Source: Erodium maritimum
Lineage: Eukaryota; Streptophyta; Magnoliopsida; Geraniales; Geraniaceae
Length of the DNA: 64,000 bases
Reading direction: 5' to 3'
Assembly: GCA_963921825.1 (NCBI GenBank)
Contig: OY997589.1
Span: forward strand, 52,694,546-52,758,545
The translations under genes were made by a program, and so were the position numbers. The notes below the pieces were generated by a model, which worked only from the letters and a program-made list of their open reading frames with translations, did no database searches and was not told the DNA's origin. Positions 10,773-45,278 of this stretch are shown in pieces (position 1 is the first letter of the stretch; every line of letters begins with the position of its first letter).

Positions 10773-11679
10773 CTAAGTCTTGCTGAGATGAATGCCATGA
10801 CTAGTGGGTAAGAGTCCTTTCTTTGAATCGAGCATTAAGAACCTACTCAATGCCTTGTTCACATAGGTTCCCTGACTTAAATCCAAGACCCTCTTGGTGC
10901 GATCTCTACATATCTTAATCCTTAAGATATGAGAAGCATCGCCTAAGTCCTTTATTGAAAAACACTTCCTCAACCAAGCTTTAGTCTCGTGCAAGGTTGG
11001 GATGTCGTTTTCAATGAGAACCAGAAAGGTAATATTGCTCCCACTAGCCTTCTTATAAACGCAAGATTCATCCTCGTTCTTGATTAAGCCAAATCCAATT
11101 ACAGCTTCATCAAAACGAAGGATCCAACTCCGAGAAGTTCGTTTCAATCCATAAATGGATTTCAACAACTTATAAATCTTTCCCTTATTCTTCGGATCGT
11201 CAAAACCTTTGGGCCGAGACATACAAACGTACTCAGTCAAATTTCCATTTAGGAAAGCGGTTTTGACATCCACTTGCCATATCTCGTAATTATGATACGC
11301 AGTTATGTCAAGAAGAATTTGGATCGATTTTGACCATAGCCACTAAGGAGAAGGTTTCCTCATAGTCAATCCATTGGATCTGCCTATAACCTTTCGCCAC
11401 CAGTTGAGCTTTGTAGGTCAGAGGGTTGCCGTCCATGTCCATCTTCACCTTGAAGATCCATTTGCATCCTATGGTCCTCACACCATTGATGGGATCAACC
11501 GGTTCCCAGACTCGGTTGTCCGACATGGATTGCATTTCCTCCCTCATGGCTCCCAGCCATAACTCGGAGTTGGGCCCATCCACGACTTCCTGAAAGGTGG
11601 CTGGATCATCGTGATCCACCATGACTTCATTGTCACCTCCGGATACCATATCTTGGAGGTGGAAGATTGATCCTTTCAA
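10773..11679 (-). pseudogene. Copia reverse transcriptase (RVT_2) remnant lacking YVDD, copy 1
   Basis: Two minus-strand frames. 11679-11308 gives the N-terminal RVT_2 part: FQEVVDGPNSELWLGAMREE, then GCKWIFKVKMDMDG and AQLVAKGYRQ. 11273-10773 gives MDVKTAFLNGNL, which has the first catalytic Asp, then SIYGLKRTSRSW and DLGDASHILRIKI. The catalytic YVDD block should stand between FLVL and IENDIP, but these are directly joined at 11015/11016, so seven residues (the YVDDILL block of copia) are missing. A C-to-T change makes a TAG shortly after SKT, where copy 2 still reads CAG. The protein could not polymerise DNA. Confidence 0.93.
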
Positions 11680-11767
11680 ATCGCCTTGGACCTTCCGGAA
11701 TTGTAACAGGAATTGGTTCTTACTCTACGACAATCTCTGGCTCCTTTCTACTGGGTTGCCAATTGGT

Positions 11768-12037
11768 TTAGACAGATCTGTACCATCCTGAATTTCTTCG
11801 AGATGCACAGTCCTCCCAATGACGTCTTTGGAAACAAAACTTCTTTTCCATAAAGACCCCACCCCAAGCGACGAACACCATGTTCTCACTGGGATTGTAG
11901 AAATAGTATCCCCTTGTTGCTTTGGGATACCACACGAAGGTGCATATCTCAGATCTTGGTTCGAGCTTAGTCGAAACCAAATGTTTCACATAAGCCTCGC
12001 AACCACAAATCTTTAGGAAGGACAAAGCGGGCATCAT
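11768..12037 (-). pseudogene. Copia integrase C-terminal (SH3-like) region, copy 1
   Basis: The minus strand gives PALSFLKICGCEAYVKHL, then FVWYPKATRGYYFYNPSEN and MVFVAWGGVFMEKKF. This is the region after the integrase core in plant copia Pol (usual pattern: K.WGCEAYVK, F.GYP..T.GYYFY.P, VFVAR...FLE). Trp of KIWGCEAY is Cys here. It sits between the integrase core and reverse transcriptase, as expected, and is separated from both by frameshifts and stops. Confidence 0.88.
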
Positions 12038-12215
12038 CCCGTACCATTTTTAAAATGGTGTCCCTTCCACACCATTCGTCGAAGCCCGATTCACTATGAA
12101 TGCGGTCGTCTCTAGAGCAAAACCCCTAAAAGAGATTGGGAGATCAGTCCAACTAATCATGGAACAGACCATTGTCTAACAATGTCCGATTTCTCCGTTT
12201 GGCTACACCTTTCAA
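12038..12215 (-). pseudogene. Frameshifted integrase segment, copy 1
   Basis: No open frame spans this stretch, but minus-strand pieces read VVER, RNRTLLD-like and FRGFALETT-like residues in alternating frames. That is the part of copia integrase with the third catalytic residue (Glu of VVER) and the helix after it. At least two frameshifts separate it from the upstream integrase core. Confidence 0.6.
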
Positions 12216-13004
12216 CTACAGTGACCTAGGAGGAGTCCATTCCAAAAGGATCCCATTCTCTTTTAGATGATCTAATAACTCTGTGGTCAAGTATTTTCCA
12301 CCTCGATCCAATCGAAGTGCCTTAATACCTTTGTCGAGCTGGTTTTCTACTATAGTCTTAAACTCTTTGAATTTATCAAAAGCTTCAGACTTATGTCTCA
12401 CCGAAGAGACATAACCATATTTACTGTAATCATCAGTAAATGTGATAAAGTAGTTAAAACCCCTCCTGGCAAGTGAACTTATTGGTCTACACACATTCGA
12501 GTGTATCAGCCCCAATAATTCACCCGCCCTTTCATCGCGATCGATAAAGGGCACTTTAGTCATTTTGCCCATCAAACAAACCTTGCACCTATCGATCGAA
12601 TGGAATTCGAATGAACCTGAAAGCCCGCACTTCTGAAGTGTTGATAGGCGCTTCTTGTTTATGCGACCCAAATGACAGTACCATAACAGAGTTAGGTTTA
12701 AATCGTTGGATTTAGACCTCTTGGTATTAACGGAATATATAGAACTTGAGGCATTGTTACCCATATCTAATATGTACAATCCTCCAACCATGTCAGTACT
12801 GGTATAAAACATATCATTGCATAGAACATTGAAAACTCCATTTCCAATATTAACATTATATCCTTCCTTGTCAAACACGGATACAGATATAATATTCCTA
12901 CTAAAAGTAGGTATGCAATATACATTATACAATACTAAGACAAGGCCTCTTGGCAAAGCAAGACTCATGGATCCTACAGCAGTTGCCACAACTCTGAGGT
13001 CCAT
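12216..13004 (-). pseudogene. Copia GAG-pre-integrase and integrase core remnant, copy 1
   Basis: A 262-residue minus-strand frame. Residues 24-45 (VLYNVYCIPTFSRNIISVS) are the end of the protease region. Residues 105-145 are the HHCC zinc region, where the two His are Tyr109 and Arg114 (LLWYCHLGRINKKR), while Cys140 and Cys143 remain. Residues 160-250 are the core: GLIHSNVCRPIS, where the first catalytic Asp is Asn170; FTDDYSKYGYV; and ALRLDRGGKY with the second Asp. The frame stops just before the third catalytic residue. The loss of both His and one Asp means no integrase activity. The same Asn is present in copies 2 and 3. Confidence 0.93.
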
Positions 13005-13143
13005 TTCGTGCTTTCCAAATCTCTCCTACTTTCAGCCACCATATATTAGTGCATGTGTGAGATTCAGTCATGGTATCTAATACCCATGAATCTTTGGAAG
13101 TAGATAGATGTAGCTCTATAGAGTTAATACCGAATGAAGGCAC
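13005..13143 (-). pseudogene. Copia aspartic protease remnant, copy 1
   Basis: The minus strand reads STSKDSWVLDT, the copia protease active-site region, where the family has WVLDTG.(S/A)SH. The following residues are M-T-E-SHTCTN, so the catalytic Asp is kept but the Gly after Thr is lost. Frame then shifts before the Cys-Ile-Pro block continues in the next frame (13004 downward). Confidence 0.8.
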
Positions 13144-13326
13144 GATCCCACCGCCCTTCCTTAGATCATCCAGGTTTCCTGATGAAGGCGCAGTCCTACT
13201 GCCCTTCTTCAGATCATCCAGGCTATTTGATGAAGGCGCAGTCCCACTGCCCTTCTTCAGATCAGCCGTGAACTTCCTGTAATCCCGGTTCCAATGATCA
13301 GGCTGTTGGCAGTAGAAGCAGACATT
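13130..13326 (-). pseudogene. Gag zinc knuckle with three 16-residue repeats, copy 1
   Basis: The minus strand reads NVCFYCQQPDHWNRDY, a CX2CX4HX4C knuckle whose last Cys is Tyr. It is followed by three near-identical 48-bp units reading D-L-K/R-K-G-S/G-x-x-x-P-S-S (13140-13275), then FGINSIELHLS leading into protease. The knuckle normally binds packaged RNA. It stands in another frame than the Gag start at 13633. Confidence 0.8.
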
Positions 13327-13399
13327 CTCAGGTGTCTCATCTTTCCTGCCAAGTGCGCATGGGCCCAGCCCTTGCCACTTCCAATTCCCTTGTTGACCA

Positions 13400-13633
13400 T
13401 CAGAATATCCTTGGATCCCAGATCCCTGAGATATTCTTCTCAGCAGTTAATGACACTTCATGTAACTCTGATATGGTCTTAGAGACAGCCTTGTCAAGGA
13501 CATATTCTTTGCGTTCAGACTTGAGGACTATCCTCAAAATTCTGTACCAGTCCAAATAGTTTGTCCCATTTAGCTTGACCCTGTCAAGAATGGTTTTTAA
13601 TGACAAACTATTAATGTTCGCTGAATTTGCCAT
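13400..13633 (-). pseudogene. Copia Gag N-terminal fragment, copy 1
   Basis: 77 residues starting MANSANINSLSLKTILDR. The pattern KLNGTNYLDWYRILRIVLKSE followed by YVLD is that of the plant copia Gag N-terminus (F/L.G.NY..W...M...L). It ends at a stop after 77 residues, and the zinc knuckle follows only about 75 bases later. Most of the capsid domain, normally a few hundred residues, is therefore missing. The copy 3 Gag at 48203-48436 has the same length and the same end, so the loss is ancestral. Confidence 0.87.
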
Positions 13634-15176
13634 TTGATCTACAACAGATAAAATTCAATCAGTAAACTGAATAAATTTTATGAAGATCAAGCTTAAACAC
13701 CAACAATCAATTCTAAACCTTTAGAATCTGAAACCAAGATCCTTGATTCACTCGATTAAGCTGAACTAATGCTCACCACTTAATCGAGCTATGTAGGTAG
13801 GACTCCATCCAATCACATCCAATGTGACTCTTGGCTAGGGTATGCACTTTTGTACACGGCTTACCCTATCTGTTACCCTAGCTCAACCTCAGGCTGAGAA
13901 TCGTAGTCGGGTCCACCAATTTTCAACTATGGCCCGTCACTATGTAGGTGCTCCGCTAATGCGCACGACACCCACATATGTCGTCCAAACCTACTACCCC
14001 GCTTCCCCATGGATGCTCCGCTAATGCGCACGACACCCATAGGACGGGGAGGTAGTAAGGTGTTGATGATTGGGAGGTATCGGACATGACCCGCTTTTAC
14101 TTGTCCAGTTGTGTTCAAAACTTTGGCACATCCTAGATGCGATGAGCACATCAACTACATTCCAAATGCAATGATGCCTCAAATTACATCCAATGTAATT
14201 CTTCCTTTGAACCCGTCAACTACATACAATGCAATGACGGTTCTAAGGGTTCACACACAAGGATTAAAATTCCAATTTTATCTTTGCATGTGAGGTGATA
14301 TGCTCGGTAAATAAAGTTAAGCATGCAATTCTAAAACACATAGAATTAATCATGCATAAACTAAACCAAGCATAAAGCGATAAATGTGCACATAATAGCC
14401 CCCTAAACTAACTCCCACTAGCTTCTTGAGCTCCACCGACTCCAAGCCGATGCCAACACCCGAAAAGCCACCAAATGACCTTTTCGCCCTTTCTTCGTCT
14501 TGAGTAAAATATTACAATTTAATACACGACTCGCAGGTCGGGAATAAATAAATATTACAAACAAGTGGTTCGACGACCACACCTTGAAAGAATAATTACA
14601 CGCTAACTCTAACGGCTCGCAGGCCGTGAAAAGCGATAAATAATTAAATCGAGCTCGGGGCTATTATGTACACCATGCCAACATCACATCACACATCGTG
14701 TTATCAAACAAGCATGTTATCAAACATCATGTGATTTTCCGGTTTTAATTAATAGCCAAGTTTCGAAATTTTTTGATGCTCGGTTTATCGAAACCGTTCA
14801 AAAATGAAACTTTTGAACATTTGATCTTCGAGTTCATCATGACGGTTCCAAACTCGTCATAACTAACAAAACGGTTTAGCCTTGGCATATCAACCATCTA
14901 ATGGTCATGCTTGGCCTAGCTCCGTCCAACGGAGCCCCGTTCGGTCCCGGTTTCGGCTCCCCGAGAGTCCCGCTCCCGAGACCCGAAAAATCAAATTTTT
15001 TTCAAAATTTCCAGATTTGAAATAATTTTCAAAAATTCATTTTACATGCATTAAATCCATAAACAAGAATTTAAAACATGTTATCAAACAATTTAGCAAA
15101 ACAACATGCCAAAAACGAAACTTTCAAGCAAAACCGAAACTATGAACACCGTCTTGTGAATCCCGAAGGTAGCACG
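13634..15176 (-). other. Untranslated leader of copia copy 1
   Basis: About 1.5 kb between primer site and Gag with no coding trace on either strand. It holds a 26-nt direct repeat (starting TGCTCCGCTAATGCG at 13949 and 14014) and several ACATCCAATGTAAT-type dyads (13808-13830, 14188-14200). Copy 3 has the corresponding leader at 48437-49947. Confidence 0.75.
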
Positions 15177-15188
15177 GCTCTGATACCA
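15177..15188 (-). other. Primer binding site (iMet tRNA), copia copy 1
   Basis: The minus strand reads TGGTATCAGAGC, one base after the 5' LTR. This is the standard plant copia primer site, complementary to the 3' end of initiator methionine tRNA. Confidence 0.95.
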
Positions 15189-15189
15189 C

Positions 15190-16877
15190 TGTTGGGTCTC
15201 TAGGTAGGGTTGGAGATGAACCAACTCGCAGCGGAAAATCAATGAAAACCAAGAGACAATTAGAACCATGAAACAACTAACAAAGAATGGATTAACAAGA
15301 GAAAAATTTCAGCACTAGTTCTTACCAAAACAAGAACACCGGTTAACGAATGATTGGCTTGAGTCTCCAAGACGCCTACGTATCCACATGGGAATCAAAG
15401 CCACGTAGTTCTTCTCTTTGAGTACTCAAGAACACAAACATGGAGGTGGAAACTAGCCAAACCCGAAATGGCCATGGAAGAGGGAGAGAAAATGTGTTTC
15501 CTATTCTTGTCTTGTGTTTGTTATGTTGAAAAAAGATGACTTAAACATAACAAAACCCATACTTGTCCAACTAAAGGCATGGGACAAGTATGGTGTCAAG
15601 TAAGGTGTAAATAGGACAAAGTATGGCAAGACAAGATTGGGTTAGGTGGTGAATCACCAACACCTTAATCCTTGTCTTGCTTACTTAGTACTAATTAATC
15701 AAGACTTGATTAATTAGTTCCATGGGCCTTGGTTGCATGGGCCTTTCATGGGCCTCTTGGAACATGGCCCGTGGCCATTTCCAACGAGGTCCCGTGATTC
15801 ACTCATCGCCTCCAAGCCTTCCATACCGGAAATGTCCAACATTATCCGACGCGATCAATCCCAAGACTCCAAGCCTTGTCTCGATCCGTAAAGTCCTATT
15901 CACTTACGGGCACATGACCCAAAACCCAGTTTGGTCATGTCCCGAGACAACTCCCTTTTGGCCATTCTCCATAAATGTGTCAATGAGTTTCATCCTCCGG
16001 TGTGACCCTTAGGTTTATGCATGTCAATAGATCAACATAAAATCCCATTTTACTTGATCCTATTTAAGTGGCAACTAACGAGACTTTAGTATTGCCCGAC
16101 ATTACATAACGAATCGACCCTGTCGATTCTAACCTTTCCGTCGTCCCTGTCATTATCCTTTTATCTCCGATATCCTGATTGAGATAAGGCATAGAGCCGT
16201 CATCCTTATTATTCTCAATCACCGTTCCTTGATATGTGAGATGACTGAAGATATGATACCCAGTATCATGTGCATGGCCATGCTATTCTTCCAGTCACTC
16301 TCGATCAAGTGGCCGAGAACCGATATCTTTCCCATACCTTAGTATGAGGGATAAATCCCTTAGCCGTCTTTCGTGTCACTCATGTAGCCCGTCCCCAAGC
16401 CAATCCTGGCCGTTATGGAAGCCCTGTTACGGACAACGTTAGGCTCAGGTCAAACTCAGTTGTTGACTACATAGCGATCACAAAGACTCCTTGGTCTAAG
16501 GATACATGACAAGCTACAACACTGAATATGTTCATGACTTAATCTATGGCACATATTCAGGGCGGGTCGTCCAATATCATGTCCCACATGATATCTATGA
16601 TCAGACTCCGGAATCCCATTCCAATGACTAACAGAACGTAAGCCATAAAGAGCCATCTTTCATACTAGTCGCTTCTAGTGAAGCTTTGTTGACTAGGGAC
16701 CCATCGAGTGTGATCTATCTCGATCTATGGTTCTATTCGCATGGTGGGCATAGATCAGAGCACACATCGATATATTACTCCAACACATAAGTAATATAAA
16801 GCCGCTTTAATTTTATTGCTAACGATGATATATACATTTGGACATTTAGGATTGAACTACGGGCACTAAGACTAACA
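15190..16877 (-). mobile_element. 5' LTR of copia copy 1
   Basis: TGTTGGGTCTC to GACTAACA on the + strand, 1688 bp, matching the LTR at 8417 in every block compared. In minus orientation this LTR is upstream of the primer site and would drive transcription. No gene lies inside. Confidence 0.96.
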
Positions 16878-16882
16878 TGTGG
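16878..16882. repeat. Target site duplication of copia copy 1 (right), TGTGG
   Basis: Same five bases as 8412-8416; satellite resumes in the correct phase immediately after. Confidence 0.97.
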
Positions 16883-17939
16883 GTGGTAGTGGATCCGGGA
16901 AAGAGATCATACAGGAGGAGGATGTCATGGAGGAGGGTTCGAAGATTTGTTTTGGAGGATAGGTTGGATGGAAAGGGATGATGTGGAGTAGTTTTCATGG
17001 AGAATCAGCGGTGGACGACCGTTGTTTTGAGGTTAGGTCGAGACATACTAGAGGTGGGCCAACTAATACTTAATGTCGGTCGGTCTATCTTGCAGGTTGG
17101 TCTCGACACGTTTGAGCTGGGCCGGCCGATACCCCGCATCGTTCGACATGTTTTGCAGCACATTATGGCGCGGTCAGCCTTTTTCTCGGAAGCCCGACCA
17201 ATATTTGACTAGGCGACCTTTCAATTCTAATGAAACAAATTACTTGTCTGGATATCTTAATCCTAATAACGTGTTCTCTACCCTTATACCTATGAAATTT
17301 ATAAGTACGCTTGGGATTTCGGATGAGGTATTTCCACTTTGGAGTTGGACTAGTGCCTGTGGGTGGTAGTGGATTCGCGAAAGAGATCATACAGGAGGAG
17401 GATGTCATGGAGGTGGGTCGGAGAGTTAGTTTTTGAGGATAGGCTGGATGGAAAGGGATGATGTGGAGTAGTTTTCATGGAGAATCAGCGGTGGACGACA
17501 GTTGTTTTGAGGTTGGTCGAGACATACTAGAGGTGGGCCAACTAATACTTAATGTCGGTCGGTCTATCTTGCAGGTTGGTCTCGACACGTTTGAGCTGGG
17601 CCGGCCGATACCACGCATCGTTCGACATGTTTTGCAGCACATTATGGCGCGGTCAGCCTTTTTCTCGGAAGCCCGACCAATATATGACTAGGCGACCTTT
17701 CAATTCTAATGAAACAAATTACTTGTCTGGATATCTTGATCCTAATAACGTGTTCTCTACCCTTATACCTATGAAATTTATAAGTACGCTTGGGACTTCG
17801 GATGAGGTATTTCCACTTTGGAGTTGGACTAGTGCCTGTGGGTGGTAGTGGATTCGCGAAAGAGATCATACAGGAGGAGGATGTCATGGAGGTGGGTCGG
17901 AGAGTTAGTTTTTGAGGATAGGTTGGATGGAAAGGGATA

Positions 17940-18527
17940 ATGTGGAGTAGTTTTCATGGAGAATCAGCGGTGGACGACCGTTGTTTTGAAGTTGGTCGAG
18001 ACATACTAGAGGTGGGCCAACTAATACTTAATGTCGGTCGGTCTATCTTGCAGGTTGGTCTCGACACGTTTGAGCTGGGCCGGCCGATACCTCGCGTCAT
18101 TCGGCATGTTTTGCAGCACATTATGGCGCGGTCGTCCTCTTTTGTCGATCGGTCAGTCCTGCTGGTTGGTCTCGATACGTTTGAGATGGGCCGACCGATA
18201 CCTCGCATCGACCGACATGTTTTCCAGCACATTATGGCGCGGTCGGCCTCTTTTTCGGAAGACCGGCCAATATTTGACTAAGCAACCTTTCAATTCTAAT
18301 GAAACAAATTACTTGTCTGGATATCTTACCACTAATAACGTGTTCTCTACACTTACACCTATGAAATTTATATGTACGATTGGGACTTGGGATGAGGCAT
18401 TTCCATTTTGGAGTTGGACTAGCATGTGGGTGGTAGTGGATCCGCGAAAGAGATCATACAGGAGGAGGATGTCATGGAGGAGGGTTCGAAGGTTTGTTTT
18501 GGAGGATAGGTTGGATGGAAAGGGATG
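17940..18527. repeat. Extended satellite monomer, 588 bp
   Basis: After GCGCGGTCGTCCTCTTTTGTCG the monomer repeats its own middle part (TGGTTGGTCTCGATACGTTT to CGGAAGACCG), adding about 109 bp. The same extended monomer stands at 21403-21990, as expected from the 3463-bp duplication. Confidence 0.88.
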
Positions 18528-21500
18528 ATGTGGAGTAGTTTTCATGGAGAATCAGCGGTGGACGACCGTTGTTTTGAGGTTGGTCGAGACATACTAGAGG
18601 TGGGCCAACTAATACTTAATGTCGGTCGGTCTATCTTGCAGGTTGGTCTCGACACGTTTGAGCTGGGCCGGCCGATACCCCGCATCGTTCGACATGTTTT
18701 GCAGCACATTATGGCGCGGTCAGCCTTTTTCTCGGAAGCCCGACCAATATTTGACTAGGCGACCTTTCAATTCTAATGAAACAAATTACTTGTCTGGATA
18801 TCTTAATCCTAATAACGTGTTCTCTACCCTTATACCTATGAAATTTATAAGTACGCTTGGGAATTCGGATGAGGTATTTCCACTTTGAAGTTGGACTAGT
18901 GCCTGTGGGTGTTAGTGGATTCGCGAAAGAGATCATACAGGAGGAGGATGTCATGGAGGTGGGTCGGAGAGTTAGTTTTTGAGGATAGGTTGGATGGAAA
19001 GGGATAATGTCGAGTAGTTTTCATGGAGAATCAGCGGTGGACGACCGTTGTTTTGAGGTTGGTCGAGACATACTAGAGGTGGGCCAACTAATACTTAATG
19101 TCGGTCGGTCTATCTTGCAGGTTGGTCTCGACACGTTTGAGCTGGGCCGGCCGATACCTCGCATCGTTCGACATCTTTTGCAGCACATTATGGCGCGTTC
19201 AGCCTTTTTCTCGGAAGCCCGACCAATATTTGACTAGGCGACCTTTCAATTCTAATGAAACAAATTACTTGTCTGGATATCTTAATCCTAATAACGTGTT
19301 CTCTAGCCTTATACCTATGAAATTTATAAGTACGCTTGGGACTTGGGATGAGGTATTTCCTCTTTGGAGTTGAACTAGTGCCTGTGGGTGGTAGTGGATT
19401 CGCGAAAGAGATCATACAGGAGGAGGATGTCATGGAGGTGGGTCGGAGAGTTAGTTTTTGAGGATAGGTTGGATGGAAAGGGATAATGTGGAGTAGTTTT
19501 CATGGAGAATCAGCGGTGGACGACCGTTGTTTTGAGGTTGGTCGAGACATATTAGAGGTGGGCCAACTAATACTTAATGTCGGTCGGTCTATCTTGCAGG
19601 TTGGTCTCGACACGTTTGAGCTGGGCCGGCCGATACCTCGCATCGTTCGACATCTTTTGCAGCACATTATGGCGCGTTCAGCCTTTTTCTCGGAAGCCCG
19701 ACCAATATTTGACTAGGCGACCTTTCAATTCTAATGAAACAAATTACTTTTCTGGATATCTTAATCCTAATAACGTGTTCTCTACCCTTATACCTATGAA
19801 ATTTAGAAGTACGCTTGGGACATGGGATGAGGTATTTCCACTTTGGAGTTGGACTAGTGCATGTGGCTGGTAGTGGATTCGCGAAAGAGATCATACAGGA
19901 GGAGGATGTCATGGAGGTGGGTCGGAGGGTTAGTTTTTGAGGATATGTTGGATGGAAAAGGATAATGTGGAGTAGTTTGCATGGAGAATCATCGGTGGAC
20001 GACCGTTATTTTGATGTTGGTCGAGACAGACTAGAGGTGGACCGGCTAACATTTTTTGTCGATCGGTCAGTCTTCCTGGTTGGTCTCGATACGTTTGAGA
20101 TGGGCCGGCTGATACCTCGCATCGGCCGACATGTTTTCCAGCACATTATGGCGCGGTCGGCCTCTTTTTCGGAAGACCGACCAATATTTGACTAGGCGAC
20201 CTTTCAATTCTAATGAAACAAATTACTTGTCTGGATATCTTACCACTAATAACGTGTTCTCTACCCTTACACCTATAAAATTTATAAGTACGCTTGGGAC
20301 TTGGGATGAGGCATTTTCATTTTGGAGTTGGACTAGTGCATGTGGGTGGTAGTGGATCCGGGAAAGAGATCATACAGGAGGAGGATGTCATGGAGGAGGG
20401 TTCGAAGATTTGTTTTGGAGGATAGGTTGGATGGAAAGGGATGATGTGGAGTAGTTTTCATGGAGAATCAGCGGTGGACGACCGTTGTTTTGAGGTTAGG
20501 TCGAGACATACTAGAGGTGGGCCAACTAATACTTAATGTCGGTCGGTCTATCTTGCAGGTTGGTCTCGACACGTTTGAGCTGGGCCGGCCGATACCCCGC
20601 ATCGTTCGACATGTTTTGCAGCACATTATGGCGCGGTCAACCTTTTTCTCGGAAGCCCGACCAATATTTGACTAGGCGACCTTTCAATTCTAATGAAACA
20701 AATTACTTGTCTGGATATCTTAATCCTAATAACGTGTTCTCTACCCTTATACCTATGAAATTTATAAGTACGCTTGGGATTTCGGATGAGGTATTTCCAC
20801 TTTGGAGTTGGACTAGTGCCTGTGGGTGGTAGTGGATTCGCGAAAGAGATCATACAGGAGGAGGATGTCATGGAGGTGGGTCGGAGAGTTAGTTTTTGAG
20901 GATAGGCTGGATGGAAAGGGATGATGTGGAGTAGTTTTCATGGAGAATCAGCGGTGGACGACAGTTGTTTTGAGGTTGGTCGAGACATACTAGAGGTGGG
21001 CCAACTAATACTTAATGTCGGTCGGTCTATCTTGCAGGTTGGTCTCGACACGTTTGAGCTGGGCCGGCCGATACCACGCATCGTTCGACATGTTTTGCAG
21101 CACATTATGGCGCGGTCAGCCTTTTTCTCGGAAGCCCGACCAATATATGACTAGGCGACCTTTCAATTCTAATGAAACAAATTACTTGTCTGGATATCTT
21201 GATCCTAATAACGTGTTCTCTACCCTTATACCTATGAAATTTATAAGTACGCTTGGGACTTCGGATGAGGTATTTCCACTTTGGAGTTGGACTAGTGCCT
21301 GTGGGTGGTAGTGGATTCGCGAAAGAGATCATACAGGAGGAGGATGTCATGGAGGTGGGTCGGAGAGTTAGTTTTTGAGGATAGGTTGGATGGAAAGGGA
21401 TAATGTGGAGTAGTTTTCATGGAGAATCAGCGGTGGACGACCGTTGTTTTGAAGTTGGTCGAGACATACTAGAGGTGGGCCAACTAATACTTAATGTCGG

Positions 21501-21952
21501 TCGGTCTATCTTGCAGGTTGGTCTCGACACGTTTGAGCTGGGCCGGCCGATACCTCGCGTCATTCGGCATGTTTTGCAGCACATTATGGCGCGGTCGTCC
21601 TCTTTTGTCGATCGGTCAGTCCTGCTGGTTGGTCTCGATACGTTTGAGATGGGCCGACCGATACCTCGCATCGACCGACATGTTTTCCAGCACATTATGG
21701 CGCGGTCGGCCTCTTTTTCGGAAGACCGGCCAATATTTGACTAAGCGACCTTTCAATTCTAATGAAACAAATTACTTGTCTGGATATCTTACCACTAATA
21801 ACGTGTTCTCTACACTTACACCTATGAAATTTATATGTACGATTGGGACTTGGGATGAGGCATTTCCATTTTGGAGTTGGACTAGCATGTGGGTGGTAGT
21901 GGATCCGCGAAAGAGATCATACAGGAGGAGGATGTCATGGAGGAGGGTTCGA

Positions 21953-24900
21953 AGGTTTGTTTTGGAGGATAGGTTGGATGGAAAGGGATGATGTGGAGTA
22001 GTTTTCATGGAGAATCAGCGGTGGACGACCGTTGTTTTGAGGTTGGTCGAGACATACTAGAGGTGGGCCAACTAATACTTAATGTCGGTCGGTCTATCTT
22101 GCAGGTTGGTCTCGACACGTTTGAGCTGGGCCGGCCGATACCCCGCATCGTTCGACATGTTTTGCAGCACATTATGGCGCGGTCAGCCTTTTTCTCGGAA
22201 GCCCGACCAATATTTGACTAGGCGACCTTTCAATTCTAATGAAACAAATTACTTGTCTGGATATCTTAATCCTAATAACGTGTTCTCTACCCTTATACCT
22301 ATGAAATTTATAAGTACGCTTGGGAATTCGGATGAGGTATTTCCACTTTGAAGTTGGACTAGTGCCTGTGGGTGTTAGTGGATTCGCGAAAGAGATCATA
22401 CAGGAGGAGGATGTCATGGAGGTGGGTCGGAGAGTTAGTTTTTGAGGATAGGTTGGATGGAAAGGGATAATGTCGAGTAGTTTTCATGGAGAATCAGCGG
22501 TGGACGACCGTTGTTTTGAGGTTGGTCGAGACATACTAGAGGTGGGCCAACTAATACTTAATGTCGGTCGGTCTATCTTGCAGGTTGGTCTCGACACGTT
22601 TGAGCTGGGCCGGCCGATACCTCGCGTCGGTCGACATGTTTTGCCGCACATTATGGCGCGGTCGTCCTCTTTTTCAGAAGACCGACCAATATTTGACTAA
22701 GCGACCTTTCAATTCTAATGAAACAAATTACTTGTCTGGATATCTTACCACTAATAACGTGTTCTCTACCCTTACACCTATGAAATTTATAAGTACGCTT
22801 GGGACTTGGGATGAGGCATTTCCATTTTGGAATTGGACTAGTGCATGTGGATGTTAGTGGATCCGCGAAAGAGATCATACAGGAGGCGGATGTCATGGAG
22901 GAGGGTTCGAAGGTTTGTTTTTGAGGATAGGTTGGATGGAAAGGGATAATGTGGAGTAGTTTTCATGGAGAATCATCGGTGGACGACCGTTGTTTTGAGA
23001 TTGGTCGAGACAGACTAGAGGTGGACCAGCTAATATTTATTGTCGGTAGGTCTGTCTTGCTGGTTGGTCTCCACACGTTTGAGATGGGCCGGCCGATACC
23101 TCGCGTCAGTCGACATGTTTTGCAGCACATTATGGCGCGGTCGGCCTCTTTTTCAGAAGACCGACCAATATTTGACTAAGCGACCTTTCAATTCTAATGA
23201 AACAAATTACTTGTCTGGATATCTTACCCCTAATAACGTGTTCTCTACCCTTATACATATGAAATTTATAAGTACGCTTGGGACTTGGGATGAGGTATTT
23301 CCACTTTAGAGTTTGACTGGTGCATGTGGGTGGTAGTGGATTCGCGAAAGAGATCATACAGGAGGAGGATGTCATGGAGGTGGGTCGGAGGGTTAGTTTT
23401 TGAAGATAGGTTGGATGGAAAGGGATAATGTGGAGTAGTTTGCATGGTGAATCATCGGTGGACGACCGTTGTTTTGAGGTTGGTCGAGACAGACTAGAGG
23501 TGGACCGGCTAATATTTGTTGTCGGTCGGTTTGTCTTGCTGGTTGGTCTCGACACGTTTGAGATGGGCCGGCCGATACCTCGCGTCGGTCGACATGTTTT
23601 GCAGCACATTATGGCGCGGTCGGACTCTTTTTCAGAAGACTTACCAATATTTGACTAAGCGACCTTTCAATTCTAATGAAACAAATTACTTGTCTTGATA
23701 TCTTACCCCTAATAACGTGTTCTCTACCCTTATACCAATGAAATTTATAATTACGCTTGGGACTTGGGATGAGGTATTTCCACTTAAGAGTTGGACTGGT
23801 GCATGTGGGTGGTAGTGGTTCGCGAAAGAGATCATACAGGAGGAGGATGTCATGGAGGTGGGTCGGAGGGTTAGTTTTTGAGGATAGGTTAGATGGAAAG
23901 GGATAACGTTGAGTAGTTTGCATGGAGAATCATCGGTGGATGACCGTTGTTTTGATGTTGGTCGAGACAGACTAGAGGTGGACCGGCTAACATTTATTGT
24001 CGATCGGTCAGTCTTGCTGGTTGGTCTCGACACGTTTGAGATGAGCCGGCCGATACATCGCATCGGCCGACATGTTTTCCTGCACATTATGGCGCGGTCG
24101 GCCTCTTTTTCGGAAGACCGACCAATATTTGACTAGGCGACCTTTCAATTCTAATGAAAAAAATTACTTGTCTGGATATCTTACCACTAATAACGTGTTC
24201 TCTACCCTTACACCTATGAAATTTATAAGTACGCTTGGGACTTAGGATGAGGTATTTCCATTTTGGAGTTGGACTAGTGCATGTGGGTGGTAGTGGATCC
24301 GCGAAAGAGATCATACAGGAGGAGGATGTCATGGAGGAGAGTTGGAAGGTTTGTTTTGGAGGATAGGTTGGATGGAAAGGGATGATGTGGAGTAGTTTTC
24401 ATGGAGAATCAGCGGTGGACGACCGTTGTTTTGAGGTTGGTCGAGACATACTAGAGGTGGGCCAACTAATACTTAATGTCGGTCGGTCTATCTTGCAGGT
24501 TGGTCTCGACACGTTTGAGCTGGGCCGGCCGATACCCCGCATCGTTCGACATGTTTTGCAGCACATTATGGCGCGGTCAGCCTTTTTCTCGGAAGCCCGA
24601 CCAATATTTGACTAGGCGACCTTTCAATTCTAATGAAACAAATTACTTGTCTGGATATCTTAATCCTATTATAGTGTTCTCTACCCTTATACCTATGAAA
24701 TTTATAAGTACGCTTGGGAATTCGGATGAGGTATTTCCACTTTGAAGTTGGACTAGTGCCTGTGGGTGGTAGTGGATTCGCGAAAGAGATCATACAGGAG
24801 GAGGATGTCATGGAGGTGGGTCGGAGAGTTAGTTTTTGAGGATAGGTTGGATGGAAAGGGATAATGTCGAGTAGTTTTCATGGAGAATCAGCGGTGGACG

Positions 24901-26740: not shown

Positions 26741-26844
26741 AGGTTTGTTTTGGAGGATAGGTTGGATGGAAAGGGATGATGTGGAGTAGTTTTCATGGAG
26801 AATGAGCGGTGGAGGACCGTTGTTTTGAGGTTGGTCGAGACATA

Positions 26845-31608: not shown

Positions 31609-31806
31609 TCAGTATTTATCTGATGAGGTGGATACGCCGCAGTACATGTTTGGATTTGTTATGCGATCTAGGCTTTTAGCTTGCGCAATGGCCCTTGTGT
31701 TGTCGCAAAATGGATTCACCGGACTGGATGGGTTTTTAATTACACCCAGCCCTGCCATGAATTTCCAAATCCACATAGCCTCCTTAGCTGCCTCTGCAGC
31801 ATCCAT
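31609..31806 (-). pseudogene. Copia RNase H remnant, copy 2
   Basis: Same 65-residue reading as 10256-10453 (MDAAEAAKEAMW, then PFCDNTRAIAQAK), with the same degraded C-terminal block. It lies about 70 bp from the LTR deletion junction. Confidence 0.87.
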
Positions 31807-32044
31807 GTACTTGGCCTCTTTCGTAGATTCGGCAATGGTATCTTGCTTTACGCTTTCCCAGCTAAAGCTCTGCCATTCAGCGTAAACACATATCCTGATT
31901 GACTTCTAAAGTCATCTGGATTTGTCTTGGAAAACTAGCGTCTACTCATCCTTCGACGACTAGTTCAGCATCATCTTTCCCCCGGGTTAGAATGATGTCT
32001 ACTGGTATAACATAAGGCTTACGAGACGTCTGGTCTCATACATG

Positions 32045-32626
32045 TCATGGCATATATGATCGATCCTGCCCCCAGGCGCATAGGATTCTCATCATCCTTT
32101 TCAGCTCATCAGGTGTCTTAGGACACTGAGTCTTGCTGAGATGAATGCCATGACTAGTGGGTAAGAGTCCTTTCTTTGAATCGAGCATTAAGAACCTACT
32201 CAATGCCTTGTTCACATAGGTTCCCTGACTTAAATCCAAGACCCTCTTGGTGCGATCTCTACATATCTTAATCCTTAAGATATGAGAAGCATCACCTAAG
32301 TCCTTTATTGAAAAACACTTCCTCAACCAAGCTTTAGTCTCGTGCAAGGTTGGGATGTCGTTTTCAATGAGAACCAGAAAGGTAATATTGCTCCCACTAG
32401 CCTTCTTATAAACGCAAGATTCATCCTCGTTCTTGATTAAGCCAAACCCAATTACAGCTTCATCAAAACGAAGGATCCAACTCCGAGAAGTTCGTTTCAA
32501 TCCAGAAATGGATTTCAACAACTTATAAATCTTTCCTTTATTCTTCGGATCGTCAAAACCTTTGGGCCGAGACATACAAACGTACTCAGTCAAATTTCCA
32601 TTTAGGAAAGCGGTTTTGACATCCAC
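32045..32626 (-). pseudogene. Copia reverse transcriptase remnant lacking YVDD, copy 2
   Basis: 193 residues from MDVKTAFLNG through DLGDASHILRIKI, extending further than copy 1 because CAG stands where copy 1 has TAG. FLVL is joined to IENDIP at 32368/32369, so the YVDDILL block is absent exactly as in copy 1. The N-terminal part of the domain is at 32661-33062 in another frame (GCKWIFKVKMDMDG, LVAKGYRQ). Confidence 0.92.
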
Positions 32627-32660
32627 TTGCCATATCTCGTAATTATGATACGCAGTTATG

Positions 32661-33062
32661 TCAAGAAGAATTTGGATCGATTTTGACCATAGCCACTAAG
32701 GAGAAGGTTTCCTCATAGTCAATCCATTGGATCTGCCTATAACCTTTCGCCACCAGTTGAGCTTTGTAGGTCAGAGGGTTGCCGTCCATGTCCATCTTCA
32801 CCTTGAAGATCCATTTGCATCCTATGGTCCTCACACCATTGATGGGATCAACCGGTTCCCAGACTCGGTTGTCCGACATGGATTGCATTTCCTCCCTCAT
32901 GGCTCCCAGCCATAACTCGGAGTTGGGCCCATCCACGACTTCCTGAAAGGTGGCTGGATCATCGTGATCCACCATGACTTCATTGTCACCTCCGGATACC
33001 ATATCTTGGAGGTGGAAGATTGATCCTTTCAAATCGCCTTGGACCTTCCAGAATTGTAACAT
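32661..33062 (-). pseudogene. Copia reverse transcriptase N-terminal part, copy 2
   Basis: Minus-strand frame with FQEVVDGPNSELWLGAMREE, NRVWEPVDPINGVRTIGCKW and YEETFSLVAMV, the standard RVT_2 opening. A frameshift separates it from the MDVKTAFLNG part. Confidence 0.88.
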
Positions 33063-33132
33063 GAATTGGTTCTTACTCTACGACAATCTCTGGCTCCTTT
33101 CTACTGGGTTGCCAATTGGTTTAGACAGATCT

Positions 33133-33390
33133 TTACCATCCTGAATTTCTTCGAGATGCACAGTCCTCCCAATGACGTCTTTGGAAACAAAACTTCTTTT
33201 CCATAAAGACCCCACCCCAAGCGACAAACACCATGTTCTCACTGGGATTGTAGAAATAGTATCCCCTTGTTGCTTTGGGATACCACACGAAGGTGCATAT
33301 CTCAGATCTTGGTTCGAGCTTAGTCGAAACCAAATGTTTCACATAAGCCTCGCAACCACAAATCTTTAGGAAGGACAAAGCGGGCATCAT
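33133..33390 (-). pseudogene. Copia integrase C-terminal region, copy 2
   Basis: Reads LKICGCEAYVKHLVSTKLEP, then YYFYNPSENMVFVAWGG and FMEKKF, as in copy 1. Out of frame with the integrase core to its right. Confidence 0.87.
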
Positions 33391-33568
33391 CCCGTACCAT
33401 TTTTAAAATGGTGTCCCTTCCACACCATTCGTCGAAGCCCGATTCACTATGAATGCGGTCGTCTCTAGAGCAAAACCCCTAAAAGAGATTGGGAGATCAG
33501 TCCAACTAATCATGGAACAGACCATTGTCTAACAATGTCCGATTTCTCCGTTTGGCTACACCTTTCAA

Positions 33569-34165
33569 CTACAGTGACCTAGGAGGAGTCCATTCCAAAA
33601 GGATCCCATTCTCTTTTAGATGATCTAATAACTCTGTGGTCAAGTATTTTCCACCTCGATCCAATCGAAGTGCCTTAATACCTTTGTCGAGCTGGTTTTC
33701 TACTATAGTCTTAAACTCTTTGAATTTATCAAAAGTTTCAGACTTATGTCTCACCGAATAGACATAACCATATTTACTGTAATCATCAGTAAATGTGATA
33801 AAGTAGCTAAAACCCCTCCTGGCAAGTGAACTTATTGCTCTACACACATTCGAGTGTATCAGCCCCAATAATTCACCCGCCCTTTCATCGCGATCGATAA
33901 AGGGCACTTTAGTCATTTTGCCCATCAAACAAACCTTGCACCTATCGATCGAATGGAATTCGAATGAACCTGAAAGCCCGCACTTCTGAAGTGCTGATGG
34001 GCGCTTCTTGTTTATGCGACCCAAATGACAGTACCATAACAGAGTTAGGTTTAAATCGTTGGATTTAGACCTCTTGGTATTAACGGAATATATAGAACTT
34101 GAGGCATTGTTACCCATATCTAATATGTACAATCCTCCAACCATGTCAGTACTGGTATAAAACAT
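33569..34165 (-). pseudogene. Copia GAG-pre-integrase and integrase core, copy 2
   Basis: 198 residues: LLWYCHLGRINKK zinc region with both His replaced, CKVCLMGK, GLIHSNVCRAIS (first catalytic Asp is Asn), FTDDYSKYGYVYSV and ALRLDRGGKY. The upstream protease part (34166-34485) is broken by one or more frameshifts. Confidence 0.92.
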
Positions 34166-34485
34166 ATCATTGCATAGAACATTGAAAACTCCATTTCCAA
34201 TATTAACATTATATCATTCCTTGTCAAACACGGATACAGATATAATATTCCTACTAAAAGTAGGTATGCAATATACATTATACAATACTAAGACAATGCC
34301 TCTTGGCAAAGCAAGACTCATGGATCCTACAGCAGTTGCCACAACTCTGATGTCCATTTCGTGCTTTCCAAATCTCTCCTACTTTCAGCCACCATATATT
34401 AGTGCATGTGTGAGATTCAGTCATGGTATCTAATACCCATGAATCTTTGGAAGTAGAGAGATGTAGCTCTATAGAGTTAATACCG

Positions 34486-35232
34486 GAATTGTTATGAGTA
34501 GTACTTCTCAAGTAAAAAGTGAATCCTTAGTCCTTCTCAAGTACTTAAGGATCTTTTAAATACCGTCTAGTGATCTTCACCTAGACCTGTCTGGTATCTG
34601 CTCGTTGCATTTAATGCACACGAGACCTCTGGTTTGGTACACAACATCACATATATGATAAATCCAATATCAAAAGCATATGAGATCTTACTCATGCGGT
34701 CTCGCTCATCAAGTGTCATGGGACACAAAGTCTTGCTAAGACTAATGCCACGGGACATTTGCATAAACCCTCTTTTAGAGTCTTTGCATACTAAACCTTA
34801 ACAACACCTTGTCAATGTAAGTGCTCTGACTTAGGTCCATAAGCTTTCTAGATCTATCTCCATAGATTGTGATACCTTATACATATGCAACTTCACCTAA
34901 GTCCTTCATTGAAAACATTTCCTTAACCATTCCATAACTTCTTGTAAGATAGGGATGTTATTTTCAATGAGCAGTATATGATCTATATACAACACTAAGA
35001 GTACGACCGCACTCCCACTGACCTTTTGTACACATAAAACTTATCTTCGTTCTTGATGAAGTCAAACTCTTTGACCGATTCATCAAAACAAAGATTCCAA
35101 CTCCGATGAGTCTGTTTCATTCCATGAATAGATCTCTACAACTCATTAATGGCTTCTTGATAGGATGTGGGTTCATCTTGATTCACAACTATCATGTCAT
35201 TATCCTCCGAATGTGAAACCCATATCTCATAA
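34486..35232 (-). mobile_element. Internally deleted copia of a related family (reverse transcriptase / RNase H part)
   Basis: Minus-strand traces from right to left: SHSEDNDMIVVNQDEPTSYQ (reverse transcriptase opening), then directly RSIHGMKQTHRSWNLCFDES and FDFIKNED, then LVLYIDHILLIENNIP, which is the YxDD block with His for the second Asp. After that come SLSKTLCPMTLDERDRMSKI and VSCALNATSRYQTGLGEDH, ending KILKYLRRTKDSL. The reverse transcriptase opening abuts the LTR at 35233, so the primer site, Gag, protease and integrase are deleted. This relative keeps the YxDD segment that copies 1 to 3 lack. It joins copy 2 at 34485/34486. Confidence 0.85.
34567..34764 (-). pseudogene. Copia Pol fragment between reverse transcriptase and RNase H
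   Basis: 65 residues: ISLSKTLCPMTLDERDRMSK, then GFIIYVMLCTKPEVSCALNA and TSRYQTGLGEDH. This is the conserved MYAM.CTRPD...A....SRY region of copia Pol. Only this piece is open; neighbours are in other frames. Confidence 0.83.
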
Positions 35233-37203: not shown

Positions 37204-37206
37204 ATT

Positions 37207-40470: not shown

Positions 40471-40488
40471 TTCTTTAAGGGGGTAGAT
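40471..40488 (+). other. Polypurine tract of the gypsy element
   Basis: TTCTTTAAGGGGGTAGAT directly before the LTR start TGTAAGAACCG at 40489, the expected plus-strand primer position. Confidence 0.82.
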
Positions 40489-41254: not shown

Positions 41255-41680
41255 TATGGCCGACCCTCTAAGGAGCACGGAGAGGGCCTCTAGCCGGCCC
41301 TCTGAGGGGCACGGAGAGGGCCTCTGGCCGGCCCTCTGGCCGGCCCTCTGAGAGGCACGGAACATGCCTCTGACCGGCCCTCTAAGCGACCCAGAATAGG
41401 TTTCTGAAAGGCCCTCTGAGTGGCATGAAACATGTCTCTAAAAGGCCCTCTGAGTGGCAAGAAACATGTCTTTGAAAGGCCCTCTGAGTGTCATGGAACA
41501 TGCCTCTGGAAGACCCTCTGAGTGGCATGGAACATGTCTCTGAAACGCCCTCTGAGTTGCATGAAACATGTCTTTGAAAGGCCCTCTGAGTGTCATGGAA
41601 CATGCCACTGGAAGACCCTCTGAGTGGCATGGAACATGCCTTTGGAAGGCCCTCTGAGCGGCCCGAAATGGGCCTTGTTT
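41255..41680 (+). repeat. 34-bp tandem repeat in the gypsy 3' LTR
   Basis: About twelve degenerate copies of GGCCCTCTGAGTGGCATG plus 16 further bases (unit 34 bp measured at 41411-41445). The minus-strand ORF over it (41382-41630) is a by-product of the repeat. Confidence 0.88.
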
Positions 41681-41977
41681 TGGCCCGGTTTACTTTACGG
41701 TCCGTATTTTCTTGTCGGGGATAATTTGGGTGTTTCCTCTTTAAATCACCATCAATTATTATTAATTCTCGTATTACTTTCTGATCCTAGACGTTGTTCC
41801 TGAGCACGGTGGAGGAGGCTACTAGGCGACTCGTGGTCGCTCGTGTTGGATAGCGGTTGAGGTAGGGAAAAGTAGCGAATACCGGTTTAAATGCGGAAAA
41901 TTACTAGAATTGCATACATGTTAAGTAATCGAAATAATTGTATAATAACATGTAGGATATGAATAACTAGGATAGTC

Positions 41978-41982
41978 CTTTA
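41978..41982. repeat. Target site duplication of copia copy 3 (left), CTTTA
   Basis: CTTTA stands directly before TGTTGGG at 41983 and directly after the right LTR at 51636-51640. Confidence 0.96.
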
Positions 41983-43645
41983 TGTTGGGTCTCGAGGTAG
42001 GGTTGGAGATGAACCAACTTAGAGCGGAAAAATAATGAAAACCAAGAGACGATTAAAACCATGAAACAACTAACAAAGAATGGATTCACAAGAGAAAAAT
42101 TCAGCACTATTTCTTACCAAAACAAGAACACCGGTTAACGAATGATTGGCTTGAGTCTCCAAGATGCCTACGTATCCACATGGGAATTAAAGCCACGTAG
42201 TTCTTCTCTTTGAGGACTCAAGAACACAAAAATGAACGTGGGAGCTTGCCAAACCCAAAATTTTAGGGAGAGAGGGAGATAAGTTGTGTTTCCTATTCTT
42301 GTCTTGTGTTTGTTATGTTGAAAAAGGATGACTTAAACATAACAAACCCCATACTTTTCCAACTAAAGGCATGAGACAAGCACGGTGACAAGTAAGGTGT
42401 AAATAGGACAAAGTATGGCAAGACAAGATTGGGTTAGTTGGTGAATCACCAACACCTTAATCCTTGTCTTGCTCACTTAGTACTAATTAATCAAGACTTG
42501 ATTAATTAGTTCCATGGGCCTCTTGGAACATGGCCCGTGGCCATTTCCAACGAGGTCCCGTGATTCGCTCATCGCCTCCAAGCTTTCCATACCGGAAATG
42601 TCCAACATTATCCGACGCGATCAATCCCAAGAATCCAAGCCTTGTCTTGATCCGTAAAGTCCTATTCACATACACGCACATGACCCAAAACCCAGTTTTG
42701 GTCATGTCCCGAGACAACTCCCTTTTGGCCATACTCCATAAATGTGTCAATGAGTTTCACACTCCGGTGTGACCCTTAGGTTTATGCATGTCAATAGATC
42801 AACGAAAAAACCCATTTTACTTGATCCTATTTAAGTGGAAACTAACGAGAATTTAGTATTGCCTGACACTGCATAACAAATCGACCTTGTCGATTTTAAC
42901 CTTTCCGTCGTCCCTGTCATTATCCTTTTATCTCTGATATCCTGATTGAGATAAGGCATAGAGCCGTCATCCTTATTATTCTCAATCACTGTTCCTTGAT
43001 ATGTGAGATGACTGAATATATGATACCCAGTATCATGTGCATGACCATGCTATTCTTTCAGTCATTCTCGATCAAGCGGCCGAGAACCGATATGTTACCC
43101 ATACCGTAGTATGAGGGATAAATCCCTTAGCCGGCTTTCGTGTCAATCATGCAGTCTGTCCCCAAACCAATCCTGGGCGTTATGGAAGCCCTGTTACGGA
43201 CAACTTTAGGCTCCGGTAAAACTCAGTTGTTTACTGCATAGCGATCACAAAGACTCCTTGGTCTAAGGATACATGACAAGCTACGAGAATGAATATGTTC
43301 ATGACTTGATCTATGGCACATATTCATGTCGGGTCTTCCAATATCATGTCCCACATGATATCTATGATCAGACTCCGGAATCCCTATCCAATGACTAACA
43401 GAACGTAAGCCATAAAGAGCCATCTTCCATTACTAGTCGCTTCTAGTGAAGCTTTGTTGACTAGGGACCCATCGAGTGTGATCTATCTCGATCTATGGTT
43501 CTATTCGCATTGTGGGCATAGTTCAGAGCACACATCGATATATTACTCCAACACATAATTAATATAAAGCCACTTTAATTTTATTGCTAACGATGATATA
43601 TACATTTGGACATTTAGGATTGAACTACGGACATTAAGGCTAACA
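41983..43645 (-). mobile_element. 3' LTR of copia copy 3
   Basis: TGTTGGGTCTCGAGG to AAGGCTAACA, 1663 bp. It lacks the TTGGTTGCATGGGCC segment present in the copy's other LTR near 50497, which explains part of the length difference. The conserved palindrome is at about 42480. No gene. Confidence 0.94.
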
Positions 43646-43663
43646 ATCTCCTACTTGCCCTAG
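43646..43663 (-). other. Polypurine tract of copia copy 3
   Basis: Minus strand TAGGGCAAGTAGGAGAT directly before the 3' LTR; one base differs from copy 1. Confidence 0.8.
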
Positions 43664-43796
43664 TTCCAATCTAAACTCCAATATGTCCTCGTCATCTTTA
43701 CATGTTTAACATGTTTAGGCAGCGACACTACCTTAGTTAAAGGGTTGGCTATGTTATCATCTGTTGCAATATAGGTTATCTTCACTTCAACTCGGT

Positions 43797-43994
43797 TCAG
43801 TATTTCTCTGATAAGGTGGATACGCCGCAGTACATGTGTTGATTTGTTATGCGATCTAGGCTTTTAGCTTGCGCAATGGACCTTGTGTTGTCGCAAAATG
43901 GATTCACCGGGCCGGATGGGTTTTTAATTACACCCAACCCTGCCGTGAATTTCCAAATCCACATAGCCTCCTTAGCTGCCTCTGCAGCATCCAT
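43797..43994 (-). pseudogene. Copia RNase H remnant, copy 3
   Basis: MDAAEAAKEAMWIWKFTAGL, then PVNPFCDNTRSIAQAK, as in copies 1 and 2. Position and frame correspond to 10256-10453. Confidence 0.86.
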
Positions 43995-44312
43995 GTACTT
44001 GGCCTCTGTCGTAGATTCGGCGACGGTATCTTTCTTTACGCTTTCCCAGCTAAAGGTCCATCATTCAGCGTAGACACATATCCTGACTGACTTCTAAAGT
44101 CATCTCGATTTCTCTTGGGAAACTAACGTCTACTCATCCTTCGACGACTAGTATAGCATCATCTATCCCCAGGTTAGACTGATGTCTACTGGTACAACAT
44201 AAGGCTTACGAGACGTCCGGTCTCGTACATGTCATGGCATATATGATCGATCTTACCTCTAGGCGCATGGGATTCGCATCATCCGTTTTAGCTCATCAGG
44301 TGTCTTAGGACA

Positions 44313-45223
44313 CTAAGTCTTGTTGAGATGAATGCCATGACTAGTGGGTAAGAGTCCTTTCTTTGAATCGAGCATTGAGAACCTACTCAATACCTTGTTC
44401 ACATAGGTTCCCTGACTTAAATCCAAGACCGTCTTGGTGCGATCTCTACATATCTTAATCCGTAAGATATAAGAAGCATCACCTAAGTCCTTTATTGAAA
44501 AACACTTCCTCAACCAATCTTTAGTCTCGTGCAAGGTTGGGATGTCGTTTTCAATGAGAACCAGAAAGGTAATCTTGCTCCCACTAGCCTTCTTATAAAT
44601 GCAAGATTCATCATCGTTCTTGATTAAGACAAATCCATTTACAGCTTCATCAAAACAAAGGTTTCAACTCCGAGAAGTTTCGTTTCAATCCATACAAAAT
44701 GGATTTCAACAACTTATAAATCTTTCCCTTATTCTTCGGATCTTCAAAACCTTTGGGCTGAGACATACAAACGTAATTAGTCAAATTTCCATTTAGGAAA
44801 GCGGTTTCGACATCCACTTGCCATATCTCGTAATTATGATACGCAGTTATGTCAAGAAGAATTCAGATCGATTTTGACCATAGCCACTAGGGAGAAGGTT
44901 TCATCTTAGTCAATTCATTGGTTCTGCCTATAACTTTTCGCCACAAGTTGAGCTTTGTAGGTCAGAGGGTTTCCGTCCATGTCCATCTTCACCTTGAAGA
45001 TCTAATTGCATCCGATCGCCCTAACACCATTGATGGGATCAACCAGTTCCCAGACTCGGTTGTCCGACATGGATTGCATTTCCTCCCTCATGGCTCCCAG
45101 CCATAACTCGGAGTCGGGCCCATCCACGAGTTCTTGAAAGGTGGTTGGATCATCGTGATCCACCATGAATTCATTGTCACCTCCGGATACCATATCTTGG
45201 AGGTGGAAGATTGATCCTTTCAA
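44313..45223 (-). pseudogene. Copia reverse transcriptase remnant lacking YVDD, copy 3
   Basis: Pieces in several frames. 45223-45002 gives FQELVDGPDSELWLGAMREE and RVWELVDPINGVRAIGC; around 44850-44700 the MDVETAFLNGNL-like and PKGFEDPKNKGKIYKLLK blocks; 44534-44313 gives HETKDWLRKCFSIKDLGDAS and YILRIKI. The gap that removes YVDDILL lies at 44555/44556, at the same bases as in copies 1 and 2. The frame is more broken than in copy 1, in keeping with greater age. Confidence 0.9.
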
Positions 45224-45278
45224 ATCGCCTTGGACCTTCCAGAATTGTAACAGGAATTGGTTCTTACTCTACGACAAT

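Follow-up and report, generated by a model that had tools for sequence, protein, structure and literature searches.

The 64,000-nucleotide stretch of Erodium maritimum DNA analysed here (C2:52694546-52758545, referred to as the window) carries three copies of a Ty1/copia retrotransposon family that lacks the YVDD motif of the reverse transcriptase. We refer to all YVDD-less copies, including the three in the window, as family D, and argue below that D has probably been mobilised by proteins of its intact relatives. The features of the window are as follows, where LTR stands for long terminal repeat and TSD for target site duplication.

8417-16877, minus strand: copy 1, whole element, both LTRs 1688 bp, TSD TGTGG
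8412-8416 (left) and 16878-16882 (right), strand not applicable: TSD TGTGG of copy 1, flanking repeats
8417-10104, minus strand: copy 1 3' LTR, 1688 bp, 0/1688 differences from 15190-16877
10105-15189, minus strand: copy 1 interior with broken gag-pol, in which no stop-free stretch in sense exceeds 269 codons
11000-11027, minus strand: copy 1 FLVL/IENDIP junction, YVDD block absent, exact 28-base match and translation
15190-16877, minus strand: copy 1 5' LTR, after which the primer site TGGTATCAGAGC comes on this strand, directly below 15190
30873-34485, minus strand: copy 2, truncated on both sides, with an extra gap relative to copy 1 (9994-10183)
32353-32380, minus strand: copy 2 junction, exact 28-base match
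34612-35150, minus strand: distant copia fragment, 66.7% DNA identity, YIDHILL block present
41983-51635, minus strand: copy 3, both LTRs present, TSD CTTTA at 41978-41982 and 51636-51640
41983-43645, minus strand: copy 3 3' LTR, from comparison of the LTR pair
43646-49960, minus strand: copy 3 interior, interrupted by the insert 45454-46758
44540-44567, minus strand: copy 3 junction, exact 28-base match
45454-46758, strand not applicable: 1.3-kb TG...CA insert inside copy 3 with its own TSD GGTAC, later than copy 3
49961-51635, minus strand: copy 3 5' LTR, 84/1675 differences (5.0%) from its 3' LTR

The LTRs of D begin with TG and end with CA, and together with the primer site (presumably of the tRNA-iMet type), a polypurine tract and the 5-bp TSD they are the features of a Ty1/copia LTR retrotransposon. 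A 72-residue piece of copy 1 matches PF07727 (RVT_2-type reverse transcriptase) with an E value of 2.1e-12, and an integrase-like stretch, recognised by eye only, lies upstream of the reverse transcriptase in the translations of this copy. Copy 2, in which no TSD was seen and both ends are truncated, differs from copy 1 at 24/2949 positions (0.81%). The interior of copy 3 was compared with that of copy 1 in two parts, giving 103/1803 (5.7%) and 200/3201 (6.3%) mismatches and 11 indels. The insert within copy 3 is likely to be the solo LTR of a different element. Positions 124-8416 and 16876-30878 consist of arrays of a 479-bp satellite, so that copy 1 sits in satellite, and in the second array the spacing pattern suggests that a stretch of about 3.46 kb is repeated as a higher-order unit.

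An earlier note on this DNA had claimed that FLVL is joined directly to IENDIP in copies 1, 2 and 3, and both the translations and the exact 28-base matches on the minus strand bear this out. The placement of the 21-bp gap is ambiguous in the alignment, as it can be shifted by a few bases either way. The same note took the fragment near 34970, as a relative that still holds the block, for evidence of a clean in-frame loss. The block is present, reading LVLYIDHILLIENNIP, but the fragment is frame-broken and at its level of identity too distant a relative to be counted in the same family. Better evidence for an ancestral block comes from YVDD-bearing relatives elsewhere in the genome (family A). 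The block is kept in 28/28 aligned family A relatives and absent in 23/23 D rows, although these ratios arise by construction: a block-containing pattern was used to fetch the A loci, and the junction to fetch 20 D rows.

To count the family we searched the 763-Mb assembly (40 contigs) with patterns in which mismatches were allowed, using the reversed patterns as a control. With up to three mismatches the 28-base junction has 2416 + 2413 = 4829 matches, and because the reversed pattern has none, chance is excluded as its origin. A 31-base anchor just downstream, which excludes the junction itself, has 4818 matches (reversed 0). The anchor without its last base has at most three mismatches in 23/23 D rows and at least five in 28/28 A rows; a further family, B, lay outside this specificity test, so some of the 4818 matches could belong to B. 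Of the 80 exact anchor matches that fall in the region covered by the junction matches listed, 70 have an exact junction where one would be expected. The D-type LTR end plus primer site has 6346 matches, with exact ones on every contig from C1 to C9, although this pattern was designed against B only and other families may share it. If all copies were full length, D would make up 4.3-5.4% of the genome, which is an upper estimate. YVDD-bearing relatives give 618 matches with a left-anchored pattern (none without mismatch) and 660 with a right-anchored one (three without mismatch), and the 5' end typical of family B gives 919. D thus outnumbers its candidate helper approximately 5- to 7-fold (4829 versus 660 or 919; 6346 versus 919), with the proviso that pattern sensitivities may differ. 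By count, the YVDD-less state is that of nearly the whole family.

Such numbers could also be produced if D copies were segmental or satellite duplicates of a single dead insertion that never retrotransposed, particularly as a satellite with higher-order duplication surrounds or adjoins copies 1 and 2. For copy 1 this is contradicted by its empty site. The flanks of copy 1, joined with a single TSD, match an uninterrupted unit of the 479-bp satellite at 20301-20390 in 90/90 bases, so copy 1 is a real and recent insertion into a repeat whose unoccupied form is present in the same satellite stretch. Copies 1 and 3 entered different sites, with the TSDs TGTGG and CTTTA, and the LTRs of copy 1 are identical; on both points the earlier note was right.

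Beyond the window we took 20 loci of 10 kb from the first 26 exact-junction places on C1, passing over five array members; a sixth passed-over place belongs to L052, a locus with two junctions that was read only at the junction close to its edge. Fifteen of the 20 loci hold full-length copies with both LTRs complete. The remaining five (L036, L037, L042, L043 and L052) are left out of the LTR and TSD counts, as two full LTRs of the copy read do not lie within the stretch. All 15 full-length copies have perfect 5-bp TSDs and no two of these are alike, which identifies the copies as insertions rather than segmental duplicates. The earlier note had named a YVDD-bearing majority, with its three copies as segmental duplicates, as the outcome that would speak against it, and these TSDs together with the junction and anchor counts give the opposite result. 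Of the 100 junction places listed, 12, counted by hand, lie in same-strand arrays with a spacing of mostly ~6.77 kb, and for array members duplication is likely. Copy 2 may also have arisen by duplication. For copies 1 and 3 and the 15 sampled copies it is refuted; as an account of the family as a whole we consider it very improbable.

The tandem D arrays at C1:14735613-14749194 and C1:42503052-42528947, where the spacing of mostly ~6.77 kb corresponds to LTR plus interior, and pairs of family B rows spaced 7264 apart, look like products of unequal recombination. Recombination is thus a further source of D copies. In L037 a partial second LTR-like piece directly follows the 3' LTR of the D copy, a sign of nested or recombined insertions.

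The LTR pairs of the 15 copies (~1688 bp each) differ at 1, 0, 0, 1, 2, 1, 1, 5, 5, 4, 1, 1, 0, 14 and 3 positions. Substitution rates of 1.3e-8 or, alternatively, 7e-9 per site and year were used for dating. With copy 1 included the median is one difference, or ~23 thousand years at 1.3e-8, while copy 3 is ~2.0 million years old at this rate and 3.7 million at 7e-9. As the earlier note proposed, the loss is older than the insertions of copies 1 and 3, which have both the gap and the broken interior in common. Since the loss is older than copy 3, the family has moved without YVDD across ~2 million years.

The absence of YVDD is only part of the damage. The longest sense stop-free stretch is 164-290 codons in the 15 full-length copies outside the window, and copy 3 has the same broken interior state as copy 1. 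A functional reverse transcriptase is accordingly absent across the family, by the junction and anchor counts and by the frames of copy 1 and the 15 sampled copies. The earlier view of the YVDD loss as the defect of the family holds for its family-wide absence and fails for its being a single defect, as there is no long frame anywhere in the interior; help in trans would therefore be needed even with YVDD in place. Substitutions in those parts of copy 1 that remain open are spread about evenly over the three codon positions (44/43/35 for copy 1 against copy 3, and 133/155/124 for copy 1 against the 15 copies), in counts that use only the best alignment block of each open stretch and double some substitutions where two of these stretches overlap. 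By these flat counts D has evolved as non-coding DNA. In A1, a group of YVDD-bearing relatives described below, the third codon position leads in 9/9 comparisons with the locus L007 (12/13/18 and 9/7/14 for its nearest relatives, 22/22/95 and 29/25/98 at greater distance). Large retrotransposon derivatives (LARD) and terminal-repeat retrotransposons in miniature (TRIM) have interiors without recognisable coding sequence. We rejected both classes for D, because its interior is still recognisable as degenerate gag-pol.

Gene conversion is known between LTR elements, and it is conceivable that the family spread intact with its own reverse transcriptase and that YVDD was replaced later, across its copies, with a single dead copy as the donor. 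Separately inserted copies whose LTRs differ at 0-1 positions would be too young for thousands of conversions, and the sampled interiors are broken throughout, well beyond the YVDD site, so this history is extremely unlikely.

We obtained 30 YVDD-bearing 3-kb loci, whose identity to copy 1 is mostly 80-85% for the interior and mostly 84-89% for the LTR. With the exception of L005, L017 and L031 they sort into two groups, A1 (10 loci, frame around YVDD 138-835 codons) and A2 (17 loci, 69-187 codons). Two A1 loci, L007 and L008, are open for 835 codons counted from the locus edge. In a tree of 50 reverse transcriptase pieces D (22 rows), A1 (10) and A2 (17) each form a single branch, with support of 100/100, 100/98 and 100/100 respectively; the rooting is arbitrary, and the bootstrap had yet to converge completely. 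Copy 2 was omitted from the tree, and L005 and L031, with fewer than 700 bases matched, from both alignment and tree; L001-L003 served in one analysis only.

The single D branch bears on whether short flanking repeats caused several copies to lose the 21-bp block independently of one another. The ends of the deletion do share a few bases, which leaves more than one placement of the gap. That thousands of places carry the same junction within three mismatches, that all D rows group together, and that copies 1 and 3, 11 indels apart, share the rest of their broken interior makes repeated loss hardly credible.

The members of A2 (L006, L009-L011, L013-L015, L018-L020 and L022-L028) keep YVDD in broken frames, and A2 is a second family, probably non-autonomous as well. 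For the supply of proteins A1 and B are the candidate helpers, because they combine intact frames with cis signals shared with D. A protein search with a piece of L007, in which 125 of 20237 candidates were scored, gave 26 higher-scoring rows that are 92-100% identical and have frames of up to 1342 codons; one A1 member has this 1342-codon frame. The polypurine tract and LTR start were compared with those of D in 10 chosen loci. Four of the five A1 loci examined match in 43-45 of 50 bases (43 in L007, L008 and L030, 45 in L016) and the fifth, L029, has no match (14), like L017; other values are 40 in L019, 43 in L028, 32 in L018 and 48 in L005. L005 bears YVDD in a broken frame, and its 48/50 is closer to D than that of the A1 loci examined, while for its reverse transcriptase piece identity is no higher than 83%. 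L005 could be a remnant from near the intact ancestor of D.

Family B was recognised in the same protein search as 99 rows of one identical score, 92% identical, 81 of which, counted by hand, have a frame of exactly 1350 codons. All 29 B rows on C1 overlap places matched by the right-anchored YVDD pattern (compared by hand). The 5' end pattern of B lies 3992 bp upstream in five compared rows of this contig (41.9, 45.8, 48.3, 51.26 and 51.27 Mb) and 2887 bp upstream in another (123.7 Mb). In a 1.5-kb stretch of one B copy the primer site and the last 11 bases of the LTR are the same as in D, and its leader is 94.0% identical to that of copy 1 over 803 columns; against other sampled D copies the leader has 91.4-94.0% identity and against the old copy 3 88.5%. 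Per 100 columns, identity to copy 1 is 91-100% in the leader and 88-97% in the upstream part of the LTR compared.

The earlier note had suggested looking for an autonomous relative with an intact YVDD block and the LTR ends and primer site of D. Partners with common cis signals and intact frames do exist, judged for B on the 5' side of one copy and for A1 on the 3' side. The intact block occurs together with shared primer site and leader in B, and together with shared polypurine tract and LTR start in A1.

A broken family without YVDD, recent insertions at separate sites and intact relatives that bear YVDD lead us to read D as a high-copy, full-size, non-coding Ty1/copia family mobilised in trans by the proteins of intact relatives, to which we give a probability of about 0.93. 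The earlier proposal of a reverse transcriptase supplied in trans is supported, as far as sequence comparison goes, by the counts, the separate TSDs and the intact relatives with common cis signals. In this scheme an ancestor of copies 1 and 3 would have undergone both deletion of the 21-bp YVDD block and disruption of its gag-pol frames, a state seen in both copies, and would have retained the LTR ends, primer site, leader and polypurine tract that are still present. D RNA would then have been packaged, reverse transcribed and integrated by proteins encoded by the intact relatives that share its genome, a mobilisation that would have continued for at least ~2 million years and into the very recent past. 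The helper would be family B as best candidate, with A1 next.

Several points weigh against this interpretation. The signs of trans complementation are indirect ones drawn from sequence. Ten of the 80 anchor sites are without an exact junction partner, although they may hold a junction with mismatches. The 20 sampled loci are exact-junction picks from one contig with arrays skipped, which may bias youth, intactness and TSDs upward. As for the helper, the LTR of the one sampled B copy is only 86.4% identical to that of D where it can be aligned, and the last ~400 columns before the primer site, probably U5 (the unique 5' region of the LTR), differ strongly, with 54-78% identity per 100 columns. 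The B comparison, with its 94% identity of the leader, concerns the 5' side of one copy.

The closeness of the leaders raises the idea of D as a mosaic element, able to keep up with its helper because the two have a packaging leader in common. We regard this as a tentative and rather doubtful extension of trans mobilisation; if true, an element without functional proteins could come to exceed its helper 5- to 7-fold in number, either through template switching with B or through selection acting on cis signals alone.

In D, an LTR retrotransposon that has no coding ability is far more numerous than its intact relatives, and the case is clean, can be counted and has been dated. Because it has no selected frame, the stretches conserved in D (leader, primer site and LTR ends) would mark sequences for packaging and integration in trans. 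Among the papers listed by a literature search, none reports a YVDD-less family in its title or the start of its abstract, though such a report may well have been published. The kind of element is already known: D most likely borrows the enzymes of intact relatives, a form of parasitism that occurs here at large scale. What sets D apart is how far it exceeds the helper candidate in number, its lack of any long frame, and a leader nearly identical to the candidate's beside a different LTR end.

The Athila elements are of the Gypsy type. In Arabidopsis many Athila families are reported to be exclusively non-autonomous, as D is, but many keep frames under purifying selection, of which D shows none (PMC2410132). 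Among Retand elements, 10/63 clusters of recently active elements are without a typical domain (PMC11963269). The einkorn pair RLG_Quinta and RLG_Cereba was assigned as partners by identical primer site and LTR termini, much as primer site and LTR ends are used for D here; RLG_Quinta, of an RLG family, has an intact GAG frame, whereas D keeps no intact frame (PMC11302176). BARE2 of barley is described as a defective copia element that lacks its own Gag through a conserved start-codon deletion, is packaged, and is predominant over BARE1; D is likewise a defective copia population, one that would be packaged by partner proteins, but it lacks the reverse transcriptase active site and every long frame where BARE2 has lost Gag (PMC3735527). 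The closest parallel may be wheat RLC_Angela, with full-size non-autonomous copia sub-families that have highly degenerate frames and autonomous partners more than 85% identical (PMC9744471). D resembles it as a non-autonomous copia family that appears to be mobilised in trans, and differs in having lost the catalytic block of the reverse transcriptase as a family-wide marker and in outnumbering its candidate helper to the extent given above, ~5- to 7-fold.

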